IMG/VR virus record: IMGVR_UViG_3300028829_000820
Coordinates: 1-30,943 of that record
Strand: one strand, 5' to 3'
Length of the DNA: 30,943 bases
From: a virus
Shown here in pieces: positions 5,364 through 28,094 of this stretch. The notes beneath the pieces were generated by a model. It made no database searches and was not told the origin of the DNA. It was given only the letters and a program-made list of their open reading frames with translations. Every line of letters starts with the position of its first letter. The stretch's first letter is position 1. The position numbers and the translations under genes were made by a program.

Positions 5364-5364
5364 A

Positions 5365-5403
5365 CACCCTCCTCACAACTATAATAACATTGTGAGGAGG
5401 GTG
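5365..5403 (-). promoter_or_regulatory. Perfect 14-bp inverted repeat enclosing the ribosome site of the Mre11-Rad50 gene
   Basis: Plus-strand arms CACCCTCCTCACAA (5365-5378) and TTGTGAGGAGGGTG (5390-5403) are exact reverse complements separated by 11 bases. In minus-strand RNA the 3' arm contains GAGGAGGG and ends one base before the ATG at 5363 (only position 5364 lies between), so folding would hide the Shine-Dalgarno site. The 5' arm, with CCUCCUCAC, resembles the 3' end of 16S rRNA. No U-run follows the stem in the minus direction, so it is not a normal terminator. It may act as an RNA switch, as an operator, or both. Confidence 0.8.
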
Positions 5404-5409
5404 AGTCAA
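5381..5409 (-). promoter_or_regulatory. Predicted sigma70-type promoter for the Mre11-Rad50 gene
   Basis: On the minus strand, TTGACT (5409-5404) is followed after exactly 17 bases by TATTAT (5386-5381). These match the -35 and -10 consensus in five of six positions each, with ideal spacing. The start point would fall near 5374, giving a leader of about eleven bases that begins at the ribosome site. The -35 to -10 spacer contains one arm of the 14-bp inverted repeat. Prediction from consensus only. Confidence 0.65.
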
Positions 5410-5424
5410 GGTTTTTTATACTTG

Positions 5425-5841
5425 TTATCGCTTCTTAGCCATCTTGGTTAGAGTAGCGTAGTAAATGCTCTTACCTTCTTTTTCGCCATACTGGTCAATG
5501 AAGTCCTTCATAGGAACCTTCTTTTCAAGGTCGGTTAGGGACTCTTTTTCGCCGGGAGTAAGCTTACGCTCTTCCACCTCTTCTTCTTCCATTAGTTCGC
5601 CAGAGACGAGGAAGTAGTCGCGAGCCTTGTTTAGATAGTCGGCAGCGATGGTTACCTTGCTCATCCACCAAGCAGGAAGCTCACCTTGATGATGTTGTAG
5701 GCCAGCAAGAATCTCGTGTGCATCTTCCATAGCGGTCTTCAACTTTCTAACGGCGGAAGGCAGGTCGTCGTGACCGTCTTCCATTATTCTTTCTAGCTCT
5801 TCTTTAATGATAGACTGAAGTTGTGACTTGGTGATTTTCAT
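5425..5841 (-). CDS. 138-aa protein with N-terminal KITKSQL-type amphipathic peptide and C-terminal YYAT motif
   Basis: No enzymatic function is recognised. Three blocks are visible. The N-terminus MKITKSQLQSIIKEEL (1-16) is an amphipathic basic/acidic helix; I recall similar N-termini on many otherwise unrelated proteins of marine T4-like phages. A middle block around LPAWWMSKVTIAADYL (55-70) is preceded by a predicted helix, and a Glu-rich linker follows at 82-92. The C-terminal block has DQYGEKEGKSIYYAT followed by KMAKK. The ATG at 5841 is preceded by GAGG with a seven-base spacer, and 15 bases separate it from the primase stop. The gene is followed by the promoter/hairpin region. It could be an internal virion protein sorted by its N-terminal peptide or a replication accessory; both are guesses. 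Confidence 0.75.
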   Translation of the reverse strand: MKITKSQLQSIIKEELERIMEDGHDDLPSAVRKLKTAMEDAHEILAGLQHHQGELPAWWMSKVTIAADYLNKARDYFLVSGELMEEEEVEERKLTPGEKESLTDLEKKVPMKDFIDQYGEKEGKSIYYATLTKMAKKR

Positions 5842-5856
5842 TTTATCCTCTTATCC

Positions 5857-6786
5857 TCAAAATGAGAACATTTCACTCAATAAATAGTTACTTGATGGGA
5901 TAAAAGTCGCTGATTTCTGCCTTTCAAGGAAAATGTCCAAACTCATTTCGCCAACATCTTCAAAACCGTCTGTGCTAATAAGGTAGGCATTCACGCCATA
6001 TGACAAAAGGTTCTTGATAATGCGGTTAGTTTTCTTTTTTGCGTCTCCGTCCAACGCAAGGTAAACCGGCTGGTTGTTTTCAATAATGGCTTGGAATAGA
6101 CTTGTGTCTTCGTAAAGCGTTGAGCCCAATAGCGGAACTGCGTTTGTGGCTTTGATAGCATCAAAAACCCCCTCAACAATAGTTACCGGTTTATCCCAGT
6201 CCATGTATAGTTCGTTGAAAATAATGTCTTTGGAAACAGGAGGGTTCTTGTAACGCATCCAGTCGTCCCTATAAGACCTCGCTATAAAATAGTTGACCCT
6301 ACCCTTCGCAGAGAAGGAAGGTATTATAACTCGGCCACCGTAGGCCCCAGAACGGCAGAAACCAATCTTCCACTTGAGGATGTCTTGGTCCGTCAAGCCC
6401 CGACCATAAAGATACTGGATGGCGGTTCGGCTTTCTTTGTCCCAGCCTCCACTTGTTAGGGTCTCAAACTCTTCTGGTAGAGGCACAACTTGTTCGTGAA
6501 TAATCGGAGCAACATCCATAAACAGTCTTTCAAACTGAGTGATTTCAATTTGTCCTGTTATCTCACGCCATTCCTGACGGAGTTCGTAAGAGCCCCACAA
6601 CTTTACAAGACGGCCAATGTCGCGGCCTGCTGTATCGCAGGTCCAGCACTTCCAGAAGTTCTTTTCAAAGTTTAGGGACAACTTCTTTTTGTGGTGGTTA
6701 CAAAAAGGGCAATGGAATAGATGTTCGTTTCTAGACCTGTAGCCATCGCCCAAAACATCTCTTACGACTTGGATTCGTTCTCGCAT
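5857..6786 (-). CDS. DnaG-type DNA primase (T4 gp61-like), zinc ribbon plus TOPRIM, 309 aa
   Basis: Makes RNA primers for lagging-strand synthesis. N-terminal zinc-binding domain: CPFC (about 26-29) and CWTC (about 47-50), with the intervening KKLSLNFEKNFWKCW typical of CHC2-type fingers. The catalytic TOPRIM fold is seen in VTIVEGVFDAIKA (glutamate in VEG, about 200-212) and YLALDGDAKKK (DGD acid pair, about 242-252). The region between (about 110-195, with KWKIGFCRSG and GGRVIIPSF) matches the primase core layout. At 309 residues it is compact, near T4 gp61 in size, and lacks a fused helicase; no helicase is visible in the window. The ATG at 6784-6786 lies inside the end of the resolvase gene (25-base overlap), so translation is probably coupled. 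Confidence 0.9.
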   Translation of the reverse strand: MRERIQVVRDVLGDGYRSRNEHLFHCPFCNHHKKKLSLNFEKNFWKCWTCDTAGRDIGRLVKLWGSYELRQEWREITGQIEITQFERLFMDVAPIIHEQVVPLPEEFETLTSGGWDKESRTAIQYLYGRGLTDQDILKWKIGFCRSGAYGGRVIIPSFSAKGRVNYFIARSYRDDWMRYKNPPVSKDIIFNELYMDWDKPVTIVEGVFDAIKATNAVPLLGSTLYEDTSLFQAIIENNQPVYLALDGDAKKKTNRIIKNLLSYGVNAYLISTDGFEDVGEMSLDIFLERQKSATFIPSSNYLLSEMFSF

Positions 6787-7292
6787 ATGTAACCCGCCTT
6801 CGCAATAACTAGTGAGTCAGCCATATCAAAGCAGTACGGCTTTGGCTTTCCCGTTCTCGTATATTCTATCTTGAAAGCAGGCTCGTTGTCAAGCAAATAC
6901 TGAATCACAACTTGTTTTGCCTTTTGTCCTCTCGGAACCTTTATTCCGCAGAGTTTGCGGGCCGATGTCGCCGCAATGTATTCTGGCGTCTTGCCGAAAT
7001 GGCTATAGATAACCCAAGATACAATACCATTGAAACGAGCAAGAGTAGATAAAGTTTTAGCAGAAGAAAAGCCTGAGCGGAAGGATTGGAGTGATTGCTC
7101 AATGTATACCGCGTCAATCCTGTCTCCATACTCTTCGTAAATCTTATGTAAGCCGTCTTTGACGACTTCTGCTTTTTTGAAAAAGTCTTTGTATTTTCTC
7201 GTGTCCCAAGCACCATTCAGTATTACCTTACCATCTTGATCTATAAGAGTATACCCTGTTATGCTCGTACTGATGTCAAGTCCGCAAATCAT
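6762..7292 (-). CDS. RuvC-like Holliday junction resolvase, 176 aa
   Basis: RNase H-fold resolvase that cuts four-way junctions. The acidic catalytic set is visible: D6 in GLDIS, E65 in YIEQS, and D156/D159 in FDMADSLVIA. Length matches RuvC and its phage relatives. A basic loop with KVPRGQKAKQVV (about 118-129) and GKPKPY precedes the last acids, as in this fold. Expected role: resolving branched replication intermediates before packaging. The ATG at 7290-7292 forms an ATGA junction with the stop of the HNH fragment, and its ribosome site GGAGG (7302-7306, nine-base spacer) lies in the last HNH codons. The downstream primase starts inside this gene. Confidence 0.88.
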   Translation of the reverse strand: MICGLDISTSITGYTLIDQDGKVILNGAWDTRKYKDFFKKAEVVKDGLHKIYEEYGDRIDAVYIEQSLQSFRSGFSSAKTLSTLARFNGIVSWVIYSHFGKTPEYIAATSARKLCGIKVPRGQKAKQVVIQYLLDNEPAFKIEYTRTGKPKPYCFDMADSLVIAKAGYICENESKS

Positions 7293-17376: not shown

Positions 17377-18363
17377 TTAACACTTATCGGAGCTAGGAAG
17401 GCCATTGATATAGGCATTATCCTTGACTACATTCACTTCTTCTCTCAGACACATCTCCTCGATAGAAGCATCCAAAGCAAAATCTTTTCTTCTCAGTTCT
17501 GCTACTAGAGAACATATAAAATTGTCGGGTATTTCATTATATGCATCGGTAAATACATTGAAATAGTATTCCACATCATCTGTTGTATTTGGGTACTTGT
17601 TGACAAGATTAAGCTTTTCATTTCTTTGAGCATCTGTCAGATAGATATTATCACTATCAACATATAAATCTTCTATTTGCTTTTGGAAAGTGAGTTTTCT
17701 CAGAACTTCAGCGGACGCTGTACCCTCTTCTAATACTTCAAATACCTCAACTTCAAAGTCTCCAAAACTAGATGGAACACCTTCTTCTTGGATCAATAGA
17801 GTAACTTGTTCGGAACTAACATAAATAGAACCGCCATCTACGAACAGTTCTTGCTGGCTTAGCCCAGTGTCTGGCTCAAATACAACTTTTGGATTTTCAA
17901 AATCATCTATCGCCGTACTAAACTCAAGGTTCACATCAAATTGTGGTATAGGTAAGTCTGGATGTGTTTCATTGGAAGAAGTGTAGAAGTTACTAAATGT
18001 CTCGATTTCATTATCTAGTACAAATATTTTTAGTCTTGAACTGCCACTTGAAATCGTATTACATTTTCCTAATGATTCTCTTTTCGCTATTTCGGTCTCT
18101 AAATCAATGCCGGTAATATTAATAGATTTATTATCTTTAGAAGTGGAAAATCTATTCTTTTGTACTCGCAAGTAAGGTGTCTCTAGTTTGATCCGGCCAT
18201 CAATATTGTTTTGACCTTCTCCGGAAGAAGAAAAGTTATAGTTAACACTATCATCAGAAAAAGAATAATATTCAGGCTTAAACTTGCCTTGTGCTAAAAG
18301 ACTTTCGCCATACCCAGTAAGCTTAAATTCCAGAATGTTTTCTTTCTGATTAAAGAAGGTCAT
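17377..18363 (-). CDS. Tail/baseplate structural protein (328 aa) with LTxYGxxLLAxGxFxPEYY domain
   Basis: Begins MTFFNQKENILEFKLTGYGE and continues SLLAQGKFKPEYYSFSDDSVNY. This is a module diverged from the N-terminus of the 299-aa protein in the same cluster, and one I recall at the start of tail proteins in marine T4-like phages. The remainder is acidic (runs such as DTGLSQQELFVDGG and EVEVFEVLEEG), with a helical C-terminal third. There are no signal peptide or membrane segments. The ATG at 18361-18363 overlaps the stop of the giant gene (TAATG), so it should be translated in step with the giant protein. A structural role is likely; the module's function is unknown to me. Confidence 0.8.
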   Translation of the reverse strand: MTFFNQKENILEFKLTGYGESLLAQGKFKPEYYSFSDDSVNYNFSSSGEGQNNIDGRIKLETPYLRVQKNRFSTSKDNKSINITGIDLETEIAKRESLGKCNTISSGSSRLKIFVLDNEIETFSNFYTSSNETHPDLPIPQFDVNLEFSTAIDDFENPKVVFEPDTGLSQQELFVDGGSIYVSSEQVTLLIQEEGVPSSFGDFEVEVFEVLEEGTASAEVLRKLTFQKQIEDLYVDSDNIYLTDAQRNEKLNLVNKYPNTTDDVEYYFNVFTDAYNEIPDNFICSLVAELRRKDFALDASIEEMCLREEVNVVKDNAYINGLPSSDKC

Positions 18364-21300
18364 TATCTACTTCCGCCTTGGTTAATAGAGTTTGGGTTGC
18401 TCGTTACCACAACTGTCGTTTGAGTGCCGTCTGGCTGAGTTGCAATAACGGTTTGCTGATTAGTGCCTGCTGGCGACTGAGTTAGCCCACCTTGCGATCT
18501 TGCAGTCTCTGCTTTCGATGCAACATCAGCACTGAAGACGCCTTCTTGATTAGTCCCTTGTAGCTGATCGTTGATACCAGAGATGTCTTGTCTAATAAAC
18601 TCGTTAGAAAGCATATCAACTTGAACATCTAGTTTGCCCATCTCGACAAGGCTAAAGTGATCGTATGGCCAGTTAAAGCCAAAGAACCTCTCGCCTTCAG
18701 CCTCAGATACTGTTTTGCCAAGAATATCTCTTTCATAGCTTGTCTTTGCTTTCTGCTTAACCTTGAACACCATCCACTGAATATCCTCTGGGATTTCGTT
18801 TCTGTAGAAGACTTCGCTGTACCAGCCAAGTAGTTCTCTCGTGCGAAGATTGTGAGTAACTGTCTCTTCAACTTCCTCGATTATCTGCCCAGATGGTGGA
18901 GTCAAGTTCTGCCAAATGTAACTTAGATCGTTCTCATCAAAAGTATGCTCAAACTCAAAAATGTATGCGCTGTAAGGCTCAACCTTATCGGCGTACTTGA
19001 TAAAGTCAAGATAAGGAGGGAAGTTATATCGCTTCATCTTTTGGATTTGCTTACCAACACTGTTTAGAGCGTTTGGCGAAGTGCTATCATCTACAGTGGC
19101 AATAATGTCTTGGATTCTCTCTCTAGCTCCTTCATTATCTTGAACTAGGCTAAACAACTCTTTCTCGCCGTTTACATTCCGGAATGGGATAGCTACAACA
19201 GCTTCTCTAACAGTAAGTTGTTTTCTTAGCTTGCCAACCTTGACTGGCTCGCTAGTAAACCCGCAAACATCTGCCAACGAAATATCTGTGTCTACGCCAA
19301 CAGCAATCGAATCATCCCCAAACGGCCTGATAGTGTATGCGTTTCCAGCACCGGTTGCCCCAACTCCAGTCTGATCTCGTCCAGTGCCAATGACGCCACT
19401 TGGGTGGTTGTTAAGCCAGTTTACAGGAATCTCTTCGACCTTCAAGTAAATGCCTTCATCCTCTTTTGGTATTCTACCAAACTGATGCCAGATACCACGA
19501 GGAACAGAAGCAGAAAGCTCTCCATTTGGTTGTGTGACTGAACTATAAGATGTAAGGTGCCCGAAGTTCAGAACAGGAGTTTCAAACTTAAGCTGGATTG
19601 ACCACCTAGCATCATCACCTTCACCGACGACCTCAAAGGCATCAATGCTTGCAGAAATTTGCATTGCGTTGCTGTTGAGTCTATCGTCTCTCGCTGGAAG
19701 GCCGTCACCTCTGCCCGGATTCTCGCCCGCATCCTTATCAAATCGCCAATACTTGACAAAAAGACCGTCTTGTCTTCTATCAAATGTAGTTGCGGCATCC
19801 GAGTCAGGGAAACTAAACAACTGCTTGCTTGAGTTAGGGTCTCCGGTAATGACGGGCTTGAATCCTTCTTGATCGGCTGCTGTAGCGCCTGAAATGCTGG
19901 TTCCCGGTGGCACATAAACAACATCCAACCAAGCTTCTCCATCGTAATAAGGAGGGGTATATGGCAAGTTATAACCGTTTGCAGAGTCGTATGTGCCAGA
20001 GAATACACTTGCAGGTGAGTTTGTTCCTGTCATACCAACAATAGGCGGTCCAAAAGCAGTTGGTCGTGAATACATAGTGACGGTTGGGCGAGCGTAAGTA
20101 TTCGCTGCGCCAGCACCTGTAAAACTACCAGAGCCGATTCGAGCTTTCGCATTATCTGTTTGGGTTGTAATATCCTCATCAATGTCTGCTAGGTTCTGGT
20201 TGCTTACAAAGAAGAAGTTATCTAGGCCATTATCAGTATTAGCAGGTGTATTACTATTAGACACATGAAGCGTCACTCCGTCTTCATTAGTAACGGACTC
20301 CACTTTGATTACTACAAAGTCTGAATATTCTTCTGTGCTTGGTAAAGTGCCAGCACAACTACCACTGGTGATAGCAGTGTAGTCAATCTCAGCTTCAAAA
20401 CTTGTTGCATTGTAATGCGGGCTTAGGTTGATTACAGACACCAAGTTTTGTGCGACAGATTGCCAGTTTCTAGTCTGACCGGGGCCTGCCACTGTGTCAA
20501 ACTCAAACTCATTACCGGCTGCACTGTAAGTATCGTCCTGTTCTGAAGAAGCATCAAAAGATGATTTGCCATCAACTCTCCAAATTCCTTGTGTTGTCCC
20601 AGAAAATATGAATGATGCAGAAAAATTGGATCTCCAATTTGTATCTGCTGAATCTGCAATGCAAGGGAATTCTGGATATATTGCACCGACTTCTGAACCG
20701 GCCAAGAGCCCCTTGTTAATATAAATGTATATCTCTGGTCTCTTAAAATCTTCTTCAACAATTTGTGGTACAGGATAGTTCCCATAACTACCAGAGTTTA
20801 GTCTAGCTCTATCAGCGGAACGATACATCTTGATTCTCATTCCATATGCTTTACCGGGAGTTACAGTATTAAAGTTAGCCTGTCTATCAGATAGAATCCT
20901 CGTTGTCTGCCCACTGTCTAAGAAGAAGTTGACTGACTCTGCTAGATAGTTATTCACCATATCAATGTAAGTATTATCATTACTGGCAATATTAACGATG
21001 TTCGTTAAGCGGTTACTAATCGGCCCTAAGTTAGCCATCTGTGTTGGCTCATTATCCACGATTACGCCTTGCAGTAATGATGGCTTGTAAAGCGCCTCAA
21101 ATGGAATCCTCTTGTGGAAGTCAGATCCAATGCCTCGATATGCATTATACCTGATTGTACTGCCTGCTGGACTATCATTCTCGTTTAAGCCCGGAGATAT
21201 AACTCTGGCTGTTTCGCTATATGACCCAGTAAATATTGGATAATCTACAGCCATACCAGACTTAACAGCATTGTAAAGAAGGCCCGGTGCAAAAAGCGTT

Positions 21301-24300
21301 TGCAGAACAGGTCTATATTTATTTGTATCCGAGAACTGAGTCCCAGCAGTACCGCTTGGAAGCGTTATTGATGTGTCGCGATAAACATCAAAGAACTTCT
21401 GCGCTACTTCTGTTGATCGCTCGGCTGGATAGAAACCATTATAAGGCAAGAACTTTTTGATTCCTCTGAAGCGCAAAGTAAGAGCACCCGGCTCTAAGCC
21501 ACCGTCAGCAGCACCGTCTCTAACCTCATCAAAATGTTTCAGAAAATCACTGTGTGAGTAAATCTTGAAGAAATCTTTTTGTGAAGAGTTCTGTGGTAGT
21601 CCTCTCAGCAGTGGCCTGACTGCATCTCTAGAGGGATTTGACAATTTGATCGAGAAGTTCTCATTGAATGAGGAAGAACTAAATACATCAATATTCTCTA
21701 GCCCAATAAAATCTGAAGAGATATATTCTGGAATAATAGAAAGGTCTTTTCTCTTTGTCTTGACGTCTAGATTATAGACATCGTAACTATCGTCAAATGG
21801 CGCTGATGACTTACTGGCAAATGTCTCTACCCCGTTAGAAGAAGTAAAGTATCCGGCTTGAGCGCCTGCTTCCCATTTTGCAAACCCTGAACCAAGCAAA
21901 GAATATACATGGTTACTTGCACTTCCGGGTGGGTTTGGCAAATCTTGAATAGGAACACCGCCACTCAATTCAATTTGCATACCGTGTCTAGAAACTGTGC
22001 TGCGTGGGTCTTGGAGGAAGTGGTTCCTGTAAAGTAGAGGCTGGACATTGATATTTGTTGCCCCACCAAGACGCGGCTGGCCGGGGAAACTAGGCCCACC
22101 AGTCGCATTATTACGAACTTTGTTGTAAGTTGTAGTGTTCTGTAGTATTCCGGGCTTAGTGTCAAAAGCCGATGGGCTTGTGTTTGCACCCGGAGTAGAA
22201 GTCTTTCCTGTACCAGAGTTTCCAGCAGTCTTAAATGTCGCTGTTTCAAACTCATCAAATATATCCAAGTCCCAAGCCGATCTAGCATAGAAGGAGTTGT
22301 TATCAGTTGCACCGAAAGGTTTGGTATTACCACCCTTTGAACTTCTGTTGGTCTGCGTATCTCTCCAGAAGTTGTTTTGGAAACCGGCTCTTTCACGAAC
22401 CTTCTCAAGATATGAGTTTTCTTCTGACGGCCAAATAGTTTCACGGTACTTAATGTTATTGATGACAAAAGTATCGTCCTCTGTGAGGGTGCCTATCATA
22501 TTGTCAAAGGCCGAATCATTGGCTCCGGCAATCAAATCATAGCCGTTATTGATGACATCTTGTGAGAAGTACAGCTTTTGGTTTCCGTTCTCTACATTAA
22601 GGATATGATCTCTGCCATCAATCGTGACTCTGATTTCAACTGGATCGTATCTGCAAGAAATAACTGATTGGGTTGTTACCAGAGTTGTTTCTTCAATGAT
22701 AGTTCTGGAAATCGGGAACGGATCAAATACTGTTCTTTCCGTCGTGCTTGGGTAAGCAAACAAGTTATTATTCTTCAAGTACCGATTTACTCTATTCTCT
22801 CCAACTCTTACTTGCTTAAATGAGGAGTAACCATAAGGGCCATTAGTATTGAGAATAAAGTCGTTTACCAATACACTTGATGTGGAGGGGAAAGTGACTG
22901 TCAATGTATTTGTGTCGATTGTCGGAACTGCGGAGCGCAAGCCATCAGTCACAACATATAGGTTAGCACCAACAAATGAAAGTGAAGAGTTTCTATCAGA
23001 TCCAGATGTGAACACTATCTCACTGATTAACCCAGCAGAGGTAGATACTTCGCCATCAGCGGTTTGATAACCTAGAATATAGCTTGACTCATATGAAGAG
23101 GTAATCCAAGCATAACGAAGTTCTGACCCCGGCAAAGAAGATACAACATAGTAGTTGTCGTAGAGGGTCTTTGTTGTGCTATTAGCCGCTGCTCCTGTCA
23201 AGAAGTCAGAACCGGTGTATGACCATCTTACTTGTCTTCCTGCTCTTTGAGTCTTATGGAAACTTGGAACACCTACGCCAAATACAGAAGAAGTTCCAAG
23301 ATAGTTCGATGAAGTTACATTTGACGGATTATAAAGAATCGTGCCACTATTGTTCTGATCACTACTGAAGCCACCTGTAACAGCATGGTTAACAAGGAAT
23401 ATCGTATTAAGAGGTATTCTTGTTACCAAGTTCCTGTAGTTCATATGACTGTAAGGACTCAACTCTGCTGCTTCATAATCCAGACCAACACCACCTTGGT
23501 TGTCGCCTGCGGTAAGCGGATCACCGGGAGAAGAGAAGCGGTTAACAATAATTTGCTTTCTTGCTGGTCTCGTTGGTTTCGTATAATCTGCGACGCCTGT
23601 TATAAACGAAGAAGTCAAACTTCCTGTTCCAAATCCTTCTGCCTTAACAAAGTCAGGATTGTTTGTATTTCGGCCATTAAGTTGCATTAAGTTGTATTCG
23701 TAACGATAGTTACCGTATACTTGTGAGCCTGTTCCGTATTTGATATTCCGAATGTTTATCGGACGCTTCGCACCTTCGTCTCGGGTCCAAGGAGCGTATG
23801 GGAGATCTGTGTCTACAGTTGTGATTGCAAGATTGGCTGCTTGTGGTGGGCCGAGGAAGACCCTTTGTTGTGTGGCATTGTAGCCAATCTTAAATCCTTC
23901 AGGGCGTTCAGTTGTCGCTGAGCTTGTATTGAGATCATTATGCCGATATTGTAGGCCGCCAACATGGGCTTCGGTAAAGACTCCCTGCATTGGGATCTCA
24001 TTTGCTAGACCATAGTCCAAATGAATGTTGCCAATGTTAATGTTGTTTGCCGCAGTATTATTATAGCCGGCAAGAGAGGGGCTATTGTAGGAGGCACTAA
24101 GAATATTACCGGGGAAAAGTGTCTCTACATTTCCACTAGCAAAGTTTGATACTTTTCTACCAAGATCGCCATCAAATGACTGAATGTCAAAATCCCTTTT
24201 TCTCTTATCGTCAAGTTCAACATCATCATTAATAGTTAAAGTTTCAACAAAGTCAGACCGAACTCTAATATCTGCTGCGTCAACAAAGCGGCTTACAATA

Positions 24301-27300
24301 CTGCGAAGTAGATTAATATCTTTCCGTGCGGCAACATTAAGGCCACCAAAAACAGTTTTGTCTTGCTCAATCTTAACAGAGACATTTTCCATGATCTGAT
24401 TATTTACAGAGTCAGGTTTGAAATATGAAACTCCAGCAGGAGTAAAGTTCTTTCTATATTCACGAATATTTCTGCTTTCTTTAATAATCTTGATTGAAGC
24501 TATATCAGCGTCTACAGAGTTATCTCCACTGCTAACAGATCCAGTTCTTTCTGCTCTCTGCTGCCACCAAACTGCATTATTATTTTGATTGGTCGTGTCT
24601 GTTACGGGTGCGTGACCATACTTCCAGTTGTAATCTAGATCATTAATACCTTGTAGCGTTGCACCAAAAGTATTTGTGTCCTCCACAACTTGACGGAAAA
24701 GAGGGTATGGATTTAGAACCTTGTCTCTTTCGAGCATATGATTCTCAATAATGTCCTGCATACCTGTTCTAAGGTTTGCTGTTTCTGGTACCAACTGTAG
24801 GATAAAGTTGAATACACTATCATCAAACCACTTGTAATAATCATAGAACTTGTTGAAGTCCTTAACGCTTCTTACCCTCTGGAAGAACAGAGTTCTGAGA
24901 TTGTCTAGCTTACCGTAGTCTTGGCGATAGAATGCACCAGCTTCACCAATAATGTTGTTAAACTCTGTAACATTGCCGATAAAATCTACGATTTCTCTTG
25001 AGAATGCACCCGCAAAACTCTTTTCTAAAGAGTAATATAAAGTTTCTGGACTGAAGTCACTGTTAAATACTTCGTCGTCAGAAGTTAGAACCTTAACAAG
25101 GTCTGAAGTATTGACCTGTTCAGGGAACTGAATATCGGAACCAATGATAATCTTGTTGTCAACGAAGCCTGTACTACTAGCAGGGAATCCGATGCCCTTA
25201 AACTCATATTGAGTAGCAAACTCTGCTCCGTAAGGAGCGGTATAATCATTACGAATATCTTGACTTGCGGACAAAGAACCAGAAGCAAAGTCAACAGCCA
25301 AGAACTCACCAGAAGAATCTGAACCAGTTACTGTCTGGAAGTCTACATTGAATAGGATAGTGCTTACTTCGGGAATGTATGAGCCGGTTGCTGCCCCTGC
25401 GTTAAATAGGGAGAAGTTCTTTGTGGCTCTTGATGTGCCGAAAATATTACGGTCCTTAGCGTGGGCTTCTACGGCCTCCTGCGAAAGGATAACATTATCG
25501 TAATGCCTGATGTGTCCGATTTCGACATCTGTCTTTGTAAGAACCGTTCCGGAGAAGTTTGTTCTGTCGGCACCAGCAAAATAGGTCTTTTCCTTAGTTA
25601 GCAGCCTCTGTGCGTAAGCAGTGGCCACTGAAGCTGAAACAGTAAAGTTATCCTTTACAAAATCACCCTCGGTGTTATAGCCCGATAATGAGAAAAAGTA
25701 TTTTGGAGATGATCCGCTGACACCCGTACCCCAATCTTCCAAATCACTAAACACTGAGACTGCGAAAGTCCACTCGTTCCCAGTATAGACTTCTTTGTAA
25801 AGACTAGAGGTAAGAAGAATGCTGCCGGCTGCATTTCTTAATGCAAACTTAGCATCTCTAGACTCTTCAAAAGGCCGGAGTGCGACAAGATGGAAGTTGC
25901 TATCAGGTGTATTAAAGTTGTATGAACCCGTATTGTCAAGTAAGTGAATACCAAATATTGATGATGTCAAGAAGTTAGTCGTGTAGTACCCAACCTCGTC
26001 TACCTCTTTCTTTCGAGGGAAAAAGACATTTACCTCCGAAGAGAAAGATCCGGTGGCATTCTGGGTCCCTGTTACATAGAACTGCCCGCGTGCGTTTGGA
26101 TTACCAGAAGATGCAGTCTGAAAGATTGTAGCGTTGAGTAGCGAGCCGCTATCAAAAGAAATATACTTTTTTGGAAGCAAGTTGTTCTCGAAGCGATCTT
26201 CGATGGTATACTTTCTGTTAGAAGAGTAACCCTTAAGCTGTACGATCTGCTCAGAAACTCCAATTGTTCTTAAAAAGTTTCTTACTGACTTCTGAGTACC
26301 TTTGGACTTTAATAAATGAACTGCGTTGTTGTAGATGTTGCTATAGATCTGATTTCTAACATCAGTAAGATCTAATGGGTTCTTAAATATCTTCTTATCA
26401 TTTCTATTTCTTGCAAACTCTAGTAGAGTTTCATTATTGAAAAGCTCTTTAGTGTCCAAACCAACAGACTCAAGAACTCTGTCCATATCTGGATATGCTT
26501 TTTGATCTATGTCTTCTTCTAGAGAAGTTTTTGATCCATAAGAAATATCTTTTACTTTATTGATCTCTTGAATCTGTAGGTAGAGTTCGTCAAAAGTATT
26601 TGCAACAATCTGAACTGTTTGTTTCAAGTTGTTGTCTACATCTTCGTCAATAACAAAGTTCGGGAAAGTGTTGAACAACATGGAAGAGTTCTGAGAGTCA
26701 TGCAAACTTCCACTTGCTACCAGTGCATTCAATGTTGAGATATAGTCTGGATGGTTCTTGTATATGACTGGATCTTTGAACTCTTGAGGCGCTACACCTG
26801 CCAATACAATAGCAGAACTGGTTGACCGTGCCCCAGATCCGGGGTAGCCAGTCCACTTACCGTTTGAGATTCTTCCTGAATAGTCAAGGACTACAGAATC
26901 TAGAGTATCTATATTGGAAATACCTTCGTTGAACTTGTAATATGCGCCAAGTTCAGTGTTTGCTATATCCGTGTTTACACCGCCATAAATATTCGTTCTG
27001 TAATACTTAGCAACATTTTCGACGGATCTTTCTGTCTTCCAGTACCGGAACTCATCAAGTGAAGCGGATAGCTTACCAGCAGTTGCGACGGCTGTGGTGC
27101 CAGAGGGAGCGGTAAGGAGAGCGCCGATGCGAGCCTTAATCCCGCCTGTTACATCACCGAGGTTAAATGATGAAGTGAATGTAGATTTTAGTTCGCCGTC
27201 TAGGTAAACTCGAATCCTATCATTGCCACTTGTTGGGTTTTTGATAGATACTGCGTAGTGATGCCAGTTTCCGTCTGCTAGGGTACCAGTGGTTTGGCTG

Positions 27301-28094
27301 GTGTTAAGAACTATGTCGCGCTGTCCTGAAGATCCAGAAAATAGATTCAACCTAAATGGATCTGAGCCGTCAGCAGAAGCACTAACATATAGTGTTACTC
27401 GGCCATAAGAGTCGCTACCAGAAGTCTCTCCGTTCCAAAGATCAAAAATGACTTCCTTCTCTGTCAAGCTAGGTATAAACTCAGCTTTGTTCATCCAGAA
27501 CTCAACTGTCACACCTCTATTGAAATCCATTAAGAAGTTATCAGTTCTTGTTCCATTGCGACCCAAGTCAGTGAGCCCAAGTGTATCATAAGGGTCTTCG
27601 TCATACTTGTTTGACAAATCGAAAGTGTCGCTAAGTGGCTTGCCTATCATGCCGCCAGAAGCAGTGTTCATAGTTCCGCGAATAGTGATATATTCTGGAG
27701 TCGCAGGACGGCCATAACCACCTGCTGTACTTGCTTGTGTTCCCCAACCATCTGATGAGAATACAATATGACCATTCTGTCGAGGATAAATATTCTCGAA
27801 AATATATAGGTCGATATAAGACGAGGAGTTTAGAAACTGAACCTTCTCATATTCAGATCCATCATACGGATACTGATTTGAGATGTTCTCCATCGCACTG
27901 CGATAGTAAAGCTCAGCAGAACCAAACTTAGCAAAGCTAGAAGCACTACTAAAGTTAATATTAGGGATCAAACGCTTCTTGAGTTCGACCTTGGCTCGGA
28001 GGTTCCGAACGGACTCAATATCGTTAAAGTTCTCTTCAAGATTAGTGTTTTGGACGACCTTCTTAGGCCCAAACAGATCTCTTGCTTTTGGCAT
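18363..28094 (-). CDS. Giant virion protein (3243 aa) with laminin-G/concanavalin-like domains
   Basis: At 9.7 kb this gene is nearly a third of the window. Residues about 190-370 form a LamG-type jelly roll: VTVEFWMNKAEF, then DGNWHHYAVSIKN, RIRVYLDGEL and LSASLDEFRYWKTERS. A second related fold is likely at about 690-890 (NEWTFAVSVFS, FAGADRTNFSGT, VEIGHIRHYDNVILS, EAHAKD). Between them is a helical block with SSMLFNTFPNFVIDED and QIYSNIYNNAVHLLKSKGTQ. Around 1083-1107 lies FYDYYKWFDDSVFNFILQLV. The centre is long, Ser, Thr, Asn and Gly-rich and beta-type. The C-terminal part has KLRKQLTVREAVVAIPFRN, YIFEFEHTFDENDLSYIWQN and RWMVFKVKQ-like WMVFKVKQKA, then a Gln/Thr-rich tail. Very large proteins with these blocks are familiar to me from marine phages, but their place in the virion is not. 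LamG folds suggest glycan binding. GAGG lies six bases before the ATG at 28094. Confidence 0.88.
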   Translation of the reverse strand: MPKARDLFGPKKVVQNTNLEENFNDIESVRNLRAKVELKKRLIPNINFSSASSFAKFGSAELYYRSAMENISNQYPYDGSEYEKVQFLNSSSYIDLYIFENIYPRQNGHIVFSSDGWGTQASTAGGYGRPATPEYITIRGTMNTASGGMIGKPLSDTFDLSNKYDEDPYDTLGLTDLGRNGTRTDNFLMDFNRGVTVEFWMNKAEFIPSLTEKEVIFDLWNGETSGSDSYGRVTLYVSASADGSDPFRLNLFSGSSGQRDIVLNTSQTTGTLADGNWHHYAVSIKNPTSGNDRIRVYLDGELKSTFTSSFNLGDVTGGIKARIGALLTAPSGTTAVATAGKLSASLDEFRYWKTERSVENVAKYYRTNIYGGVNTDIANTELGAYYKFNEGISNIDTLDSVVLDYSGRISNGKWTGYPGSGARSTSSAIVLAGVAPQEFKDPVIYKNHPDYISTLNALVASGSLHDSQNSSMLFNTFPNFVIDEDVDNNLKQTVQIVANTFDELYLQIQEINKVKDISYGSKTSLEEDIDQKAYPDMDRVLESVGLDTKELFNNETLLEFARNRNDKKIFKNPLDLTDVRNQIYSNIYNNAVHLLKSKGTQKSVRNFLRTIGVSEQIVQLKGYSSNRKYTIEDRFENNLLPKKYISFDSGSLLNATIFQTASSGNPNARGQFYVTGTQNATGSFSSEVNVFFPRKKEVDEVGYYTTNFLTSSIFGIHLLDNTGSYNFNTPDSNFHLVALRPFEESRDAKFALRNAAGSILLTSSLYKEVYTGNEWTFAVSVFSDLEDWGTGVSGSSPKYFFSLSGYNTEGDFVKDNFTVSASVATAYAQRLLTKEKTYFAGADRTNFSGTVLTKTDVEIGHIRHYDNVILSQEAVEAHAKDRNIFGTSRATKNFSLFNAGAATGSYIPEVSTILFNVDFQTVTGSDSSGEFLAVDFASGSLSASQDIRNDYTAPYGAEFATQYEFKGIGFPASSTGFVDNKIIIGSDIQFPEQVNTSDLVKVLTSDDEVFNSDFSPETLYYSLEKSFAGAFSREIVDFIGNVTEFNNIIGEAGAFYRQDYGKLDNLRTLFFQRVRSVKDFNKFYDYYKWFDDSVFNFILQLVPETANLRTGMQDIIENHMLERDKVLNPYPLFRQVVEDTNTFGATLQGINDLDYNWKYGHAPVTDTTNQNNNAVWWQQRAERTGSVSSGDNSVDADIASIKIIKESRNIREYRKNFTPAGVSYFKPDSVNNQIMENVSVKIEQDKTVFGGLNVAARKDINLLRSIVSRFVDAADIRVRSDFVETLTINDDVELDDKRKRDFDIQSFDGDLGRKVSNFASGNVETLFPGNILSASYNSPSLAGYNNTAANNINIGNIHLDYGLANEIPMQGVFTEAHVGGLQYRHNDLNTSSATTERPEGFKIGYNATQQRVFLGPPQAANLAITTVDTDLPYAPWTRDEGAKRPINIRNIKYGTGSQVYGNYRYEYNLMQLNGRNTNNPDFVKAEGFGTGSLTSSFITGVADYTKPTRPARKQIIVNRFSSPGDPLTAGDNQGGVGLDYEAAELSPYSHMNYRNLVTRIPLNTIFLVNHAVTGGFSSDQNNSGTILYNPSNVTSSNYLGTSSVFGVGVPSFHKTQRAGRQVRWSYTGSDFLTGAAANSTTKTLYDNYYVVSSLPGSELRYAWITSSYESSYILGYQTADGEVSTSAGLISEIVFTSGSDRNSSLSFVGANLYVVTDGLRSAVPTIDTNTLTVTFPSTSSVLVNDFILNTNGPYGYSSFKQVRVGENRVNRYLKNNNLFAYPSTTERTVFDPFPISRTIIEETTLVTTQSVISCRYDPVEIRVTIDGRDHILNVENGNQKLYFSQDVINNGYDLIAGANDSAFDNMIGTLTEDDTFVINNIKYRETIWPSEENSYLEKVRERAGFQNNFWRDTQTNRSSKGGNTKPFGATDNNSFYARSAWDLDIFDEFETATFKTAGNSGTGKTSTPGANTSPSAFDTKPGILQNTTTYNKVRNNATGGPSFPGQPRLGGATNINVQPLLYRNHFLQDPRSTVSRHGMQIELSGGVPIQDLPNPPGSASNHVYSLLGSGFAKWEAGAQAGYFTSSNGVETFASKSSAPFDDSYDVYNLDVKTKRKDLSIIPEYISSDFIGLENIDVFSSSSFNENFSIKLSNPSRDAVRPLLRGLPQNSSQKDFFKIYSHSDFLKHFDEVRDGAADGGLEPGALTLRFRGIKKFLPYNGFYPAERSTEVAQKFFDVYRDTSITLPSGTAGTQFSDTNKYRPVLQTLFAPGLLYNAVKSGMAVDYPIFTGSYSETARVISPGLNENDSPAGSTIRYNAYRGIGSDFHKRIPFEALYKPSLLQGVIVDNEPTQMANLGPISNRLTNIVNIASNDNTYIDMVNNYLAESVNFFLDSGQTTRILSDRQANFNTVTPGKAYGMRIKMYRSADRARLNSGSYGNYPVPQIVEEDFKRPEIYIYINKGLLAGSEVGAIYPEFPCIADSADTNWRSNFSASFIFSGTTQGIWRVDGKSSFDASSEQDDTYSAAGNEFEFDTVAGPGQTRNWQSVAQNLVSVINLSPHYNATSFEAEIDYTAITSGSCAGTLPSTEEYSDFVVIKVESVTNEDGVTLHVSNSNTPANTDNGLDNFFFVSNQNLADIDEDITTQTDNAKARIGSGSFTGAGAANTYARPTVTMYSRPTAFGPPIVGMTGTNSPASVFSGTYDSANGYNLPYTPPYYDGEAWLDVVYVPPGTSISGATAADQEGFKPVITGDPNSSKQLFSFPDSDAATTFDRRQDGLFVKYWRFDKDAGENPGRGDGLPARDDRLNSNAMQISASIDAFEVVGEGDDARWSIQLKFETPVLNFGHLTSYSSVTQPNGELSASVPRGIWHQFGRIPKEDEGIYLKVEEIPVNWLNNHPSGVIGTGRDQTGVGATGAGNAYTIRPFGDDSIAVGVDTDISLADVCGFTSEPVKVGKLRKQLTVREAVVAIPFRNVNGEKELFSLVQDNEGARERIQDIIATVDDSTSPNALNSVGKQIQKMKRYNFPPYLDFIKYADKVEPYSAYIFEFEHTFDENDLSYIWQNLTPPSGQIIEEVEETVTHNLRTRELLGWYSEVFYRNEIPEDIQWMVFKVKQKAKTSYERDILGKTVSEAEGERFFGFNWPYDHFSLVEMGKLDVQVDMLSNEFIRQDISGINDQLQGTNQEGVFSADVASKAETARSQGGLTQSPAGTNQQTVIATQPDGTQTTVVVTSNPNSINQGGSR

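Follow-up and report, generated by a model that had tools for sequence, protein, structure and literature searches.

A host-type promoter nested in a hairpin probably locks the ribosome-binding site of a viral Mre11-Rad50 gene

Within the 30,943 nucleotides of viral DNA analysed here (IMG/VR record IMGVR_UViG_3300028829_000820; hereafter the window, by which we mean the whole stretch), a host-sigma-type promoter nested in a hairpin fills the 61-bp gap between the stop codon of a 138-aa gene (5425) and the ATG of a gene encoding a Mre11-Rad50 fusion (5363), both on the minus strand. Predicted folds suggest that this element probably acts as a lock on the ribosome-binding site (RBS) that only the gene's own promoter opens. 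RNA arriving from the primase side would contain both arms of the hairpin, form a stem of 14-15 bp and bury the Shine-Dalgarno (SD) sequence, and the Mre11-Rad50 fusion would remain untranslated from such read-through RNA. RNA made from the nested promoter would start inside the 3' arm, lack the 5' arm and leave the SD free. The gene's own promoter would in this way license translation and decouple the Mre11-Rad50 fusion from the upstream genes. The model builds on the sequence, on the register of its elements, on the predicted folds, and on recurrence in relatives with arms that vary and covary.

Direct reading of the sequence confirmed the architecture of the original prediction, which had described exact arms, an SD in the ATG-proximal arm, and TTGACT-17-TATTAT across the same bases (Table 1). 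The 14-bp arms are 100% complementary and lie 11 nt apart. The minus-strand gap reads, in order, TTGACT CACCCTCCTCACAATGT TATTAT AG TTGTGAGGAGGGTG T ATG, and the choice of ATG is correct, as residue 1 lines up with the starts of relatives. No other perfect short-loop arms of 14 bp occur in the window. The count of perfect inverted repeats of at least 14 bp (spacer 3-20) was one in the window and zero in 30 order-1 Markov resamples; for repeats of at least 11 bp it was four against a resample mean of 0.07, with nested registers of the 14-bp repeat counted separately. The promoter has 10 of 12 matches, with TG preceding the -10, and such a match is by itself at chance level in the region (7 found versus 6.3 expected). 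The non-chance feature is the register of the promoter within the dyad: the stem starts at the first base beyond the -35 hexamer, and relatives show this register again. The nested promoter belongs to the sigma-70 type and does not fit the late-promoter motif TATAAATA. No Rfam family matched at gathering score in the window, and the exact dyad had no match in the viral contigs searched. Two other candidates were set aside. A plus-strand terminator is at odds with a T-run that does not directly follow the stem, a U score of 0.43 and the lack of an evident plus-strand gene at this place. An N4-type hairpin promoter for a virion RNA polymerase is unlike the long stem and sigma-70 hexamers seen here, and the 3243-aa open reading frame (ORF) of the window lacks a match among PHROG families.

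Table 1. Elements of the hairpin-nested promoter and genes around it in the window
Feature	Positions	Strand	Remarks
5' arm CACCCTCCTCACAA (RNA sense)	5390..5403	-	anti-SD-like, in the -35/-10 spacer; not in locally started RNA
Loop region, 11 nt	5379..5389	-	contains the -10 element
3' arm TTGTGAGGAGGGTG (RNA sense)	5365..5378	-	contains the SD and the predicted local RNA start
-35 hexamer TTGACT	5404..5409	-	stem from next base
-10 hexamer TATTAT	5381..5386	-	TGT before it (5389-5387), extended -10
Predicted transcription start, ~5374	5373..5376	-	inferred from -10 spacing
Shine-Dalgarno GAGGAGG	5368..5374	-
Fused SbcD-SbcC (Mre11-Rad50), 1037 aa	2250..5363	-	start ATG 5363-5361
Upstream 138-aa gene, no function given	5425..5841	-	stop 15 nt before the -35
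DnaG-like primase	5857..6786	-	upstream, same direction; phrog_47, E 1.7e-41
RuvC-like Holliday junction resolvase	6762..7292	-	upstream, same direction

The gene downstream of this element joins SbcD and SbcC in a single protein, relatives of which are encoded in at least 585 viral stretches; its best cultured match, in Microcystis phage Mel-JY01, stands at 29%. A match to an Rz-like spanin lies just downstream of the repair gene (1670-2038), and the 3243-aa ORF occupies positions 18363-28094. A 31-kb contig (L059 / G016) encodes the C-terminal 116 aa of the SbcD-SbcC fusion at 100% identity and is probably the same phage species continuing. A DNA search of the locus among cultured phages returned no match, and a close relative was absent from the collections searched, the nearest covering relatives having 57% protein identity.

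Folding of the two kinds of RNA supports the difference that had been proposed between them. The read-through leader, the RNA whose existence we infer, folds with a z of -5.4, and no shuffle folds equally well. The SD has an unpaired probability of 0.64 in the predicted fold of RNA from about 5374, against 0.00 in that of read-through RNA. With the -10 in the loop and the 5' arm in the spacer, RNA from the start predicted from the -10 would be free of the 5' arm. About 21 nt separate the upstream stop codon from the stem, a distance at which a terminating ribosome would probably leave the hairpin closed. The two RNAs would presumably differ in translation; that of the local RNA may itself be modest, because its leader would be only about 11 nt long, with the SD at its 5' end.

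The literature supports the precedent that had been invoked, namely T4 hairpins that hide an RBS and are accompanied by internal promoters (PMC3014915, PMC2988022). In T4 e and I-TevI, RNA started upstream is folded and poorly translated and locally started RNA is free (PMC3014915, PMC2988022). The T4 genes e, soc, 49 and I-TevI, to which T4 segB and Aeh1 mobE are similar, resemble the window in that upstream RNA folds over the SD and local RNA lacks the 5' arm, as is predicted for the window. However, the T4 hairpins are relieved by late promoters (PMC3014915, PMC2988022), and the genes that they regulate are all late according to a review (PMC2988022), whereas the window carries a host sigma-70-type promoter with a -35 and, unlike the T4 cases, places the 5' arm exactly in the -35/-10 spacer. 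Beyond the late-promoter cases originally cited, the nearest matches to the window's form occur at other genes and at T4-type early promoters.

Relatives of the fusion were gathered in two overlapping sets, first 57 viral ones (47-57% identity over whole proteins) and then 80 more. They provided 113 distinct upstream regions, of which 48 carry a promoter with at least 10 of 12 matches. A strong nested hairpin is present in 11 of these 48 (the window and 10 other distinct relatives), and since most promoter-bearing relatives are without it, the hairpin is optional at the Mre11-Rad50 gene. In all 11, the -35 marks the beginning of the stem (offset 0 or -1), and the -10 is found either within the loop or where the 3' arm starts. 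Their arms form several families: that of the window, and others that are AACTCTACCAC-like, GCCTCTATTGACAG-like and GCCTCTACTGAACAAG-like. The stem of the relatives ends about 19-30 nt ahead of the start codon, before the SD, and most members of the largest group, the AACTCTACC family, have a U-run after the stem; these same-gene relatives therefore look like overlaps of a terminator with a promoter. Consequently, what is conserved is the promoter nested in a hairpin, and RBS hiding is the form that it takes in the window.

As a check, the original prediction had named compensatory changes in the dyad upstream of the same gene in relatives. Such changes are present in the relatives' own arms, on a stem that leaves the SD outside. 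Within the AACTCTACC family (9 sequences), 97.8% of cells pair, three pairs have double changes, and covariation reaches a score of 0.280 versus 0.169 when shuffled (0/500), in an alignment made of selected sequences whose counts lean towards structure. The window's arms, for which there is no close relative, stand outside this evidence. Covariation would also be seen in a palindrome if a dimer bound both halves, and the dyad extends from the spacer to the start site, so that a protein bound to it would stand in the way of RNA polymerase. Both points fit a protein operator over the promoter, bound by a phage or host repressor, perhaps even the encoded nuclease itself. We give this explanation little credence. 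The arms vary among same-gene relatives and between genes, which makes a single shared operator less likely; the dyad occurs only once in the window record; and one AACTCTACC-family pair is seen as C-G, U-G and U-A, that is, with G-U steps that fit pairing in RNA.

Promoters that overlap hairpins also occur elsewhere in the genomes of related phages. A survey of related contigs totalling about 1.5 Mb found overlapping hairpins with a score of at least 30 at 8 of 162 strict promoters versus 4 of 3240 random positions, and the eight are not all independent, as several represent the same gene in related phages. Pattern scans delivered 29 and 21 stretches. The second set is type B, which reads TTGACTTAGCCCCCTCAAACAGTTATAATATAATATAACTTGAGGGGGTTATTTACATG and has a nested promoter and the SD in the 3' arm, the layout of the window ahead of unrelated genes. 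The matches closest to the window's form precede UvdE-like, deaminase-like and 5'-3' exonuclease-like genes, so named from sequence motifs only. A comparison of one type B element with cultured phages gave only short matches at chance level. In L254-L274, type B remains associated with a RecA-like gene and with a small protein of secreted appearance (names again from motifs). In G003 (173308-173354 and 202030-202068), terminator-like hairpins have the -35 of the next promoter in their loop or 3' arm, which is another register of promoter/hairpin overlap.

Several of these patterns would also be expected of a compact operon junction, in which the intrinsic terminator of the upstream operon, or a derivative of it, overlaps the next promoter and RBS hiding is a by-product; locally started RNA would have no 5' arm and hence would not be terminated. 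A U-run comes after the stem in L010, L043, L138, L131, L265, L094 and L262 (U scores 3.2-4.9), and in L138 and L131 promoter, stem, U-run and ATG all fit within about 50 bp. Furthermore, the distance from the preceding stop codon to the element is mostly 7-13 nt, and 15 nt in the window, and type B keeps the same genes on its upstream side whereas the one on its downstream side varies between contigs. The window shares with the terminator/promoter overlaps of the same gene (the L010 group) a hairpin that forms only in read-through RNA, but differs from them in its SD inside the arm and its lack of a U-run: its GC-rich stem would suit an intrinsic terminator, but the tail TATGCGTTT has a U score of only 1.64. 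The T4-type nested hairpins described below, where scored, have no U-run either (0-1.04). An operon junction is thus an unlikely account of the window, and its poor U-run makes RBS hiding the likelier read-out there.

Cultured phages were scanned with the same rule, using a control that swaps downstream halves among promoters within one genome. Hairpins with a score of at least 22 were observed at 8 of 31 promoters in T4 (0.17 expected from swaps), 8 of 31 in RB69 (0.72), 9 of 36 in JS98 (1.12) and 3 of 35 in RB49 (0.14). In HTVC008M, S-PM2, T5 and Mel-JY01, which offer few testable promoters, no nested promoter with this score had a downstream RBS and ORF; the promoter-like sites of Mel-JY01 were mainly AT-rich repeats. 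Examples of nested early promoters in T4 precede ndd.4, alc, denV, regB, nrdC.8 and alt.-3. Nested early promoters of T4, RB69 and JS98 share with the window the order -35, 5' arm, -10 in the loop, 3' arm with SD, and ATG, as well as a -35 that starts a few nt past the upstream stop; they differ in a -35 of the form TTTAC[AT] and are without a U-run. The number of cases with the SD core within the 3' arm is 5 of 8 in T4, 3 of 8 in RB69 and 4 of 9 in JS98. A contrast in predicted SD accessibility comparable to that of the window was obtained for type B elements, for L138 and for T4 -166806, -65412 and -53942.

Orthologous early promoters of the T-even phages retain pairing with different letters. 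Nine sequences picked for their layout contain five pairs with double changes and give a covariation score of 0.338 versus 0.133 (0/500 shuffles), a count that leans towards structure through the omission of two other-register sequences, both of which pair in their own register. Because about half of the T4-type nested hairpins leave the SD outside and are without a U-run, RBS hiding cannot on its own account for the design. Four T4 early promoters in strong hairpins (-57989, -20611, -65798 and -73938 in AF158101) are of this kind, and in hairpins such as the first two some other benefit must exist. An effect on DNA or on RNA stability would accommodate this half: a dyad at the -10 may help melting, or the hairpin may protect the upstream 3' end or set a processing site. 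As an explanation of the element it has very little to recommend it in our view, given that the SD lies within the arm in the window, in type B and in several T-even cases, and that double changes preserve the pairing in the T-even phages, an outcome not necessarily expected of such effects.

Among the T4 reviews to which our comparison was confined, the one on early transcription makes no mention, in the part covered, of hairpins at early promoters (PMC2988021), and a search of the literature on promoter/terminator nesting found nothing pertinent. Early-type promoters nested in hairpins may represent a device that is general among T4-type phages and has apparently gone unremarked, by which translation of a gene is confined to RNA from its own promoter, a generalization that we advance tentatively and rate as not quite an even call. 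If true, the free spacer between -35 and -10 accommodates the 5' arm, and the gene is silent on RNA coming from upstream. The arrangement would be the mirror image of the late-gene cases, with regB, denV and alc of T4 silent on read-through RNA after early promoters have been shut down. A single element of 45-60 bp would serve as promoter and RBS lock, and in some phages also as terminator, and the promoter from which a message came would govern its translation, without any protein taking part. T4 is well suited to tests of these ideas, since regB, denV and alc share the layout and its genetics are mature. The design would offer a compact insulator for synthetic operons, and it could help explain how early proteins stay off long read-through messages.
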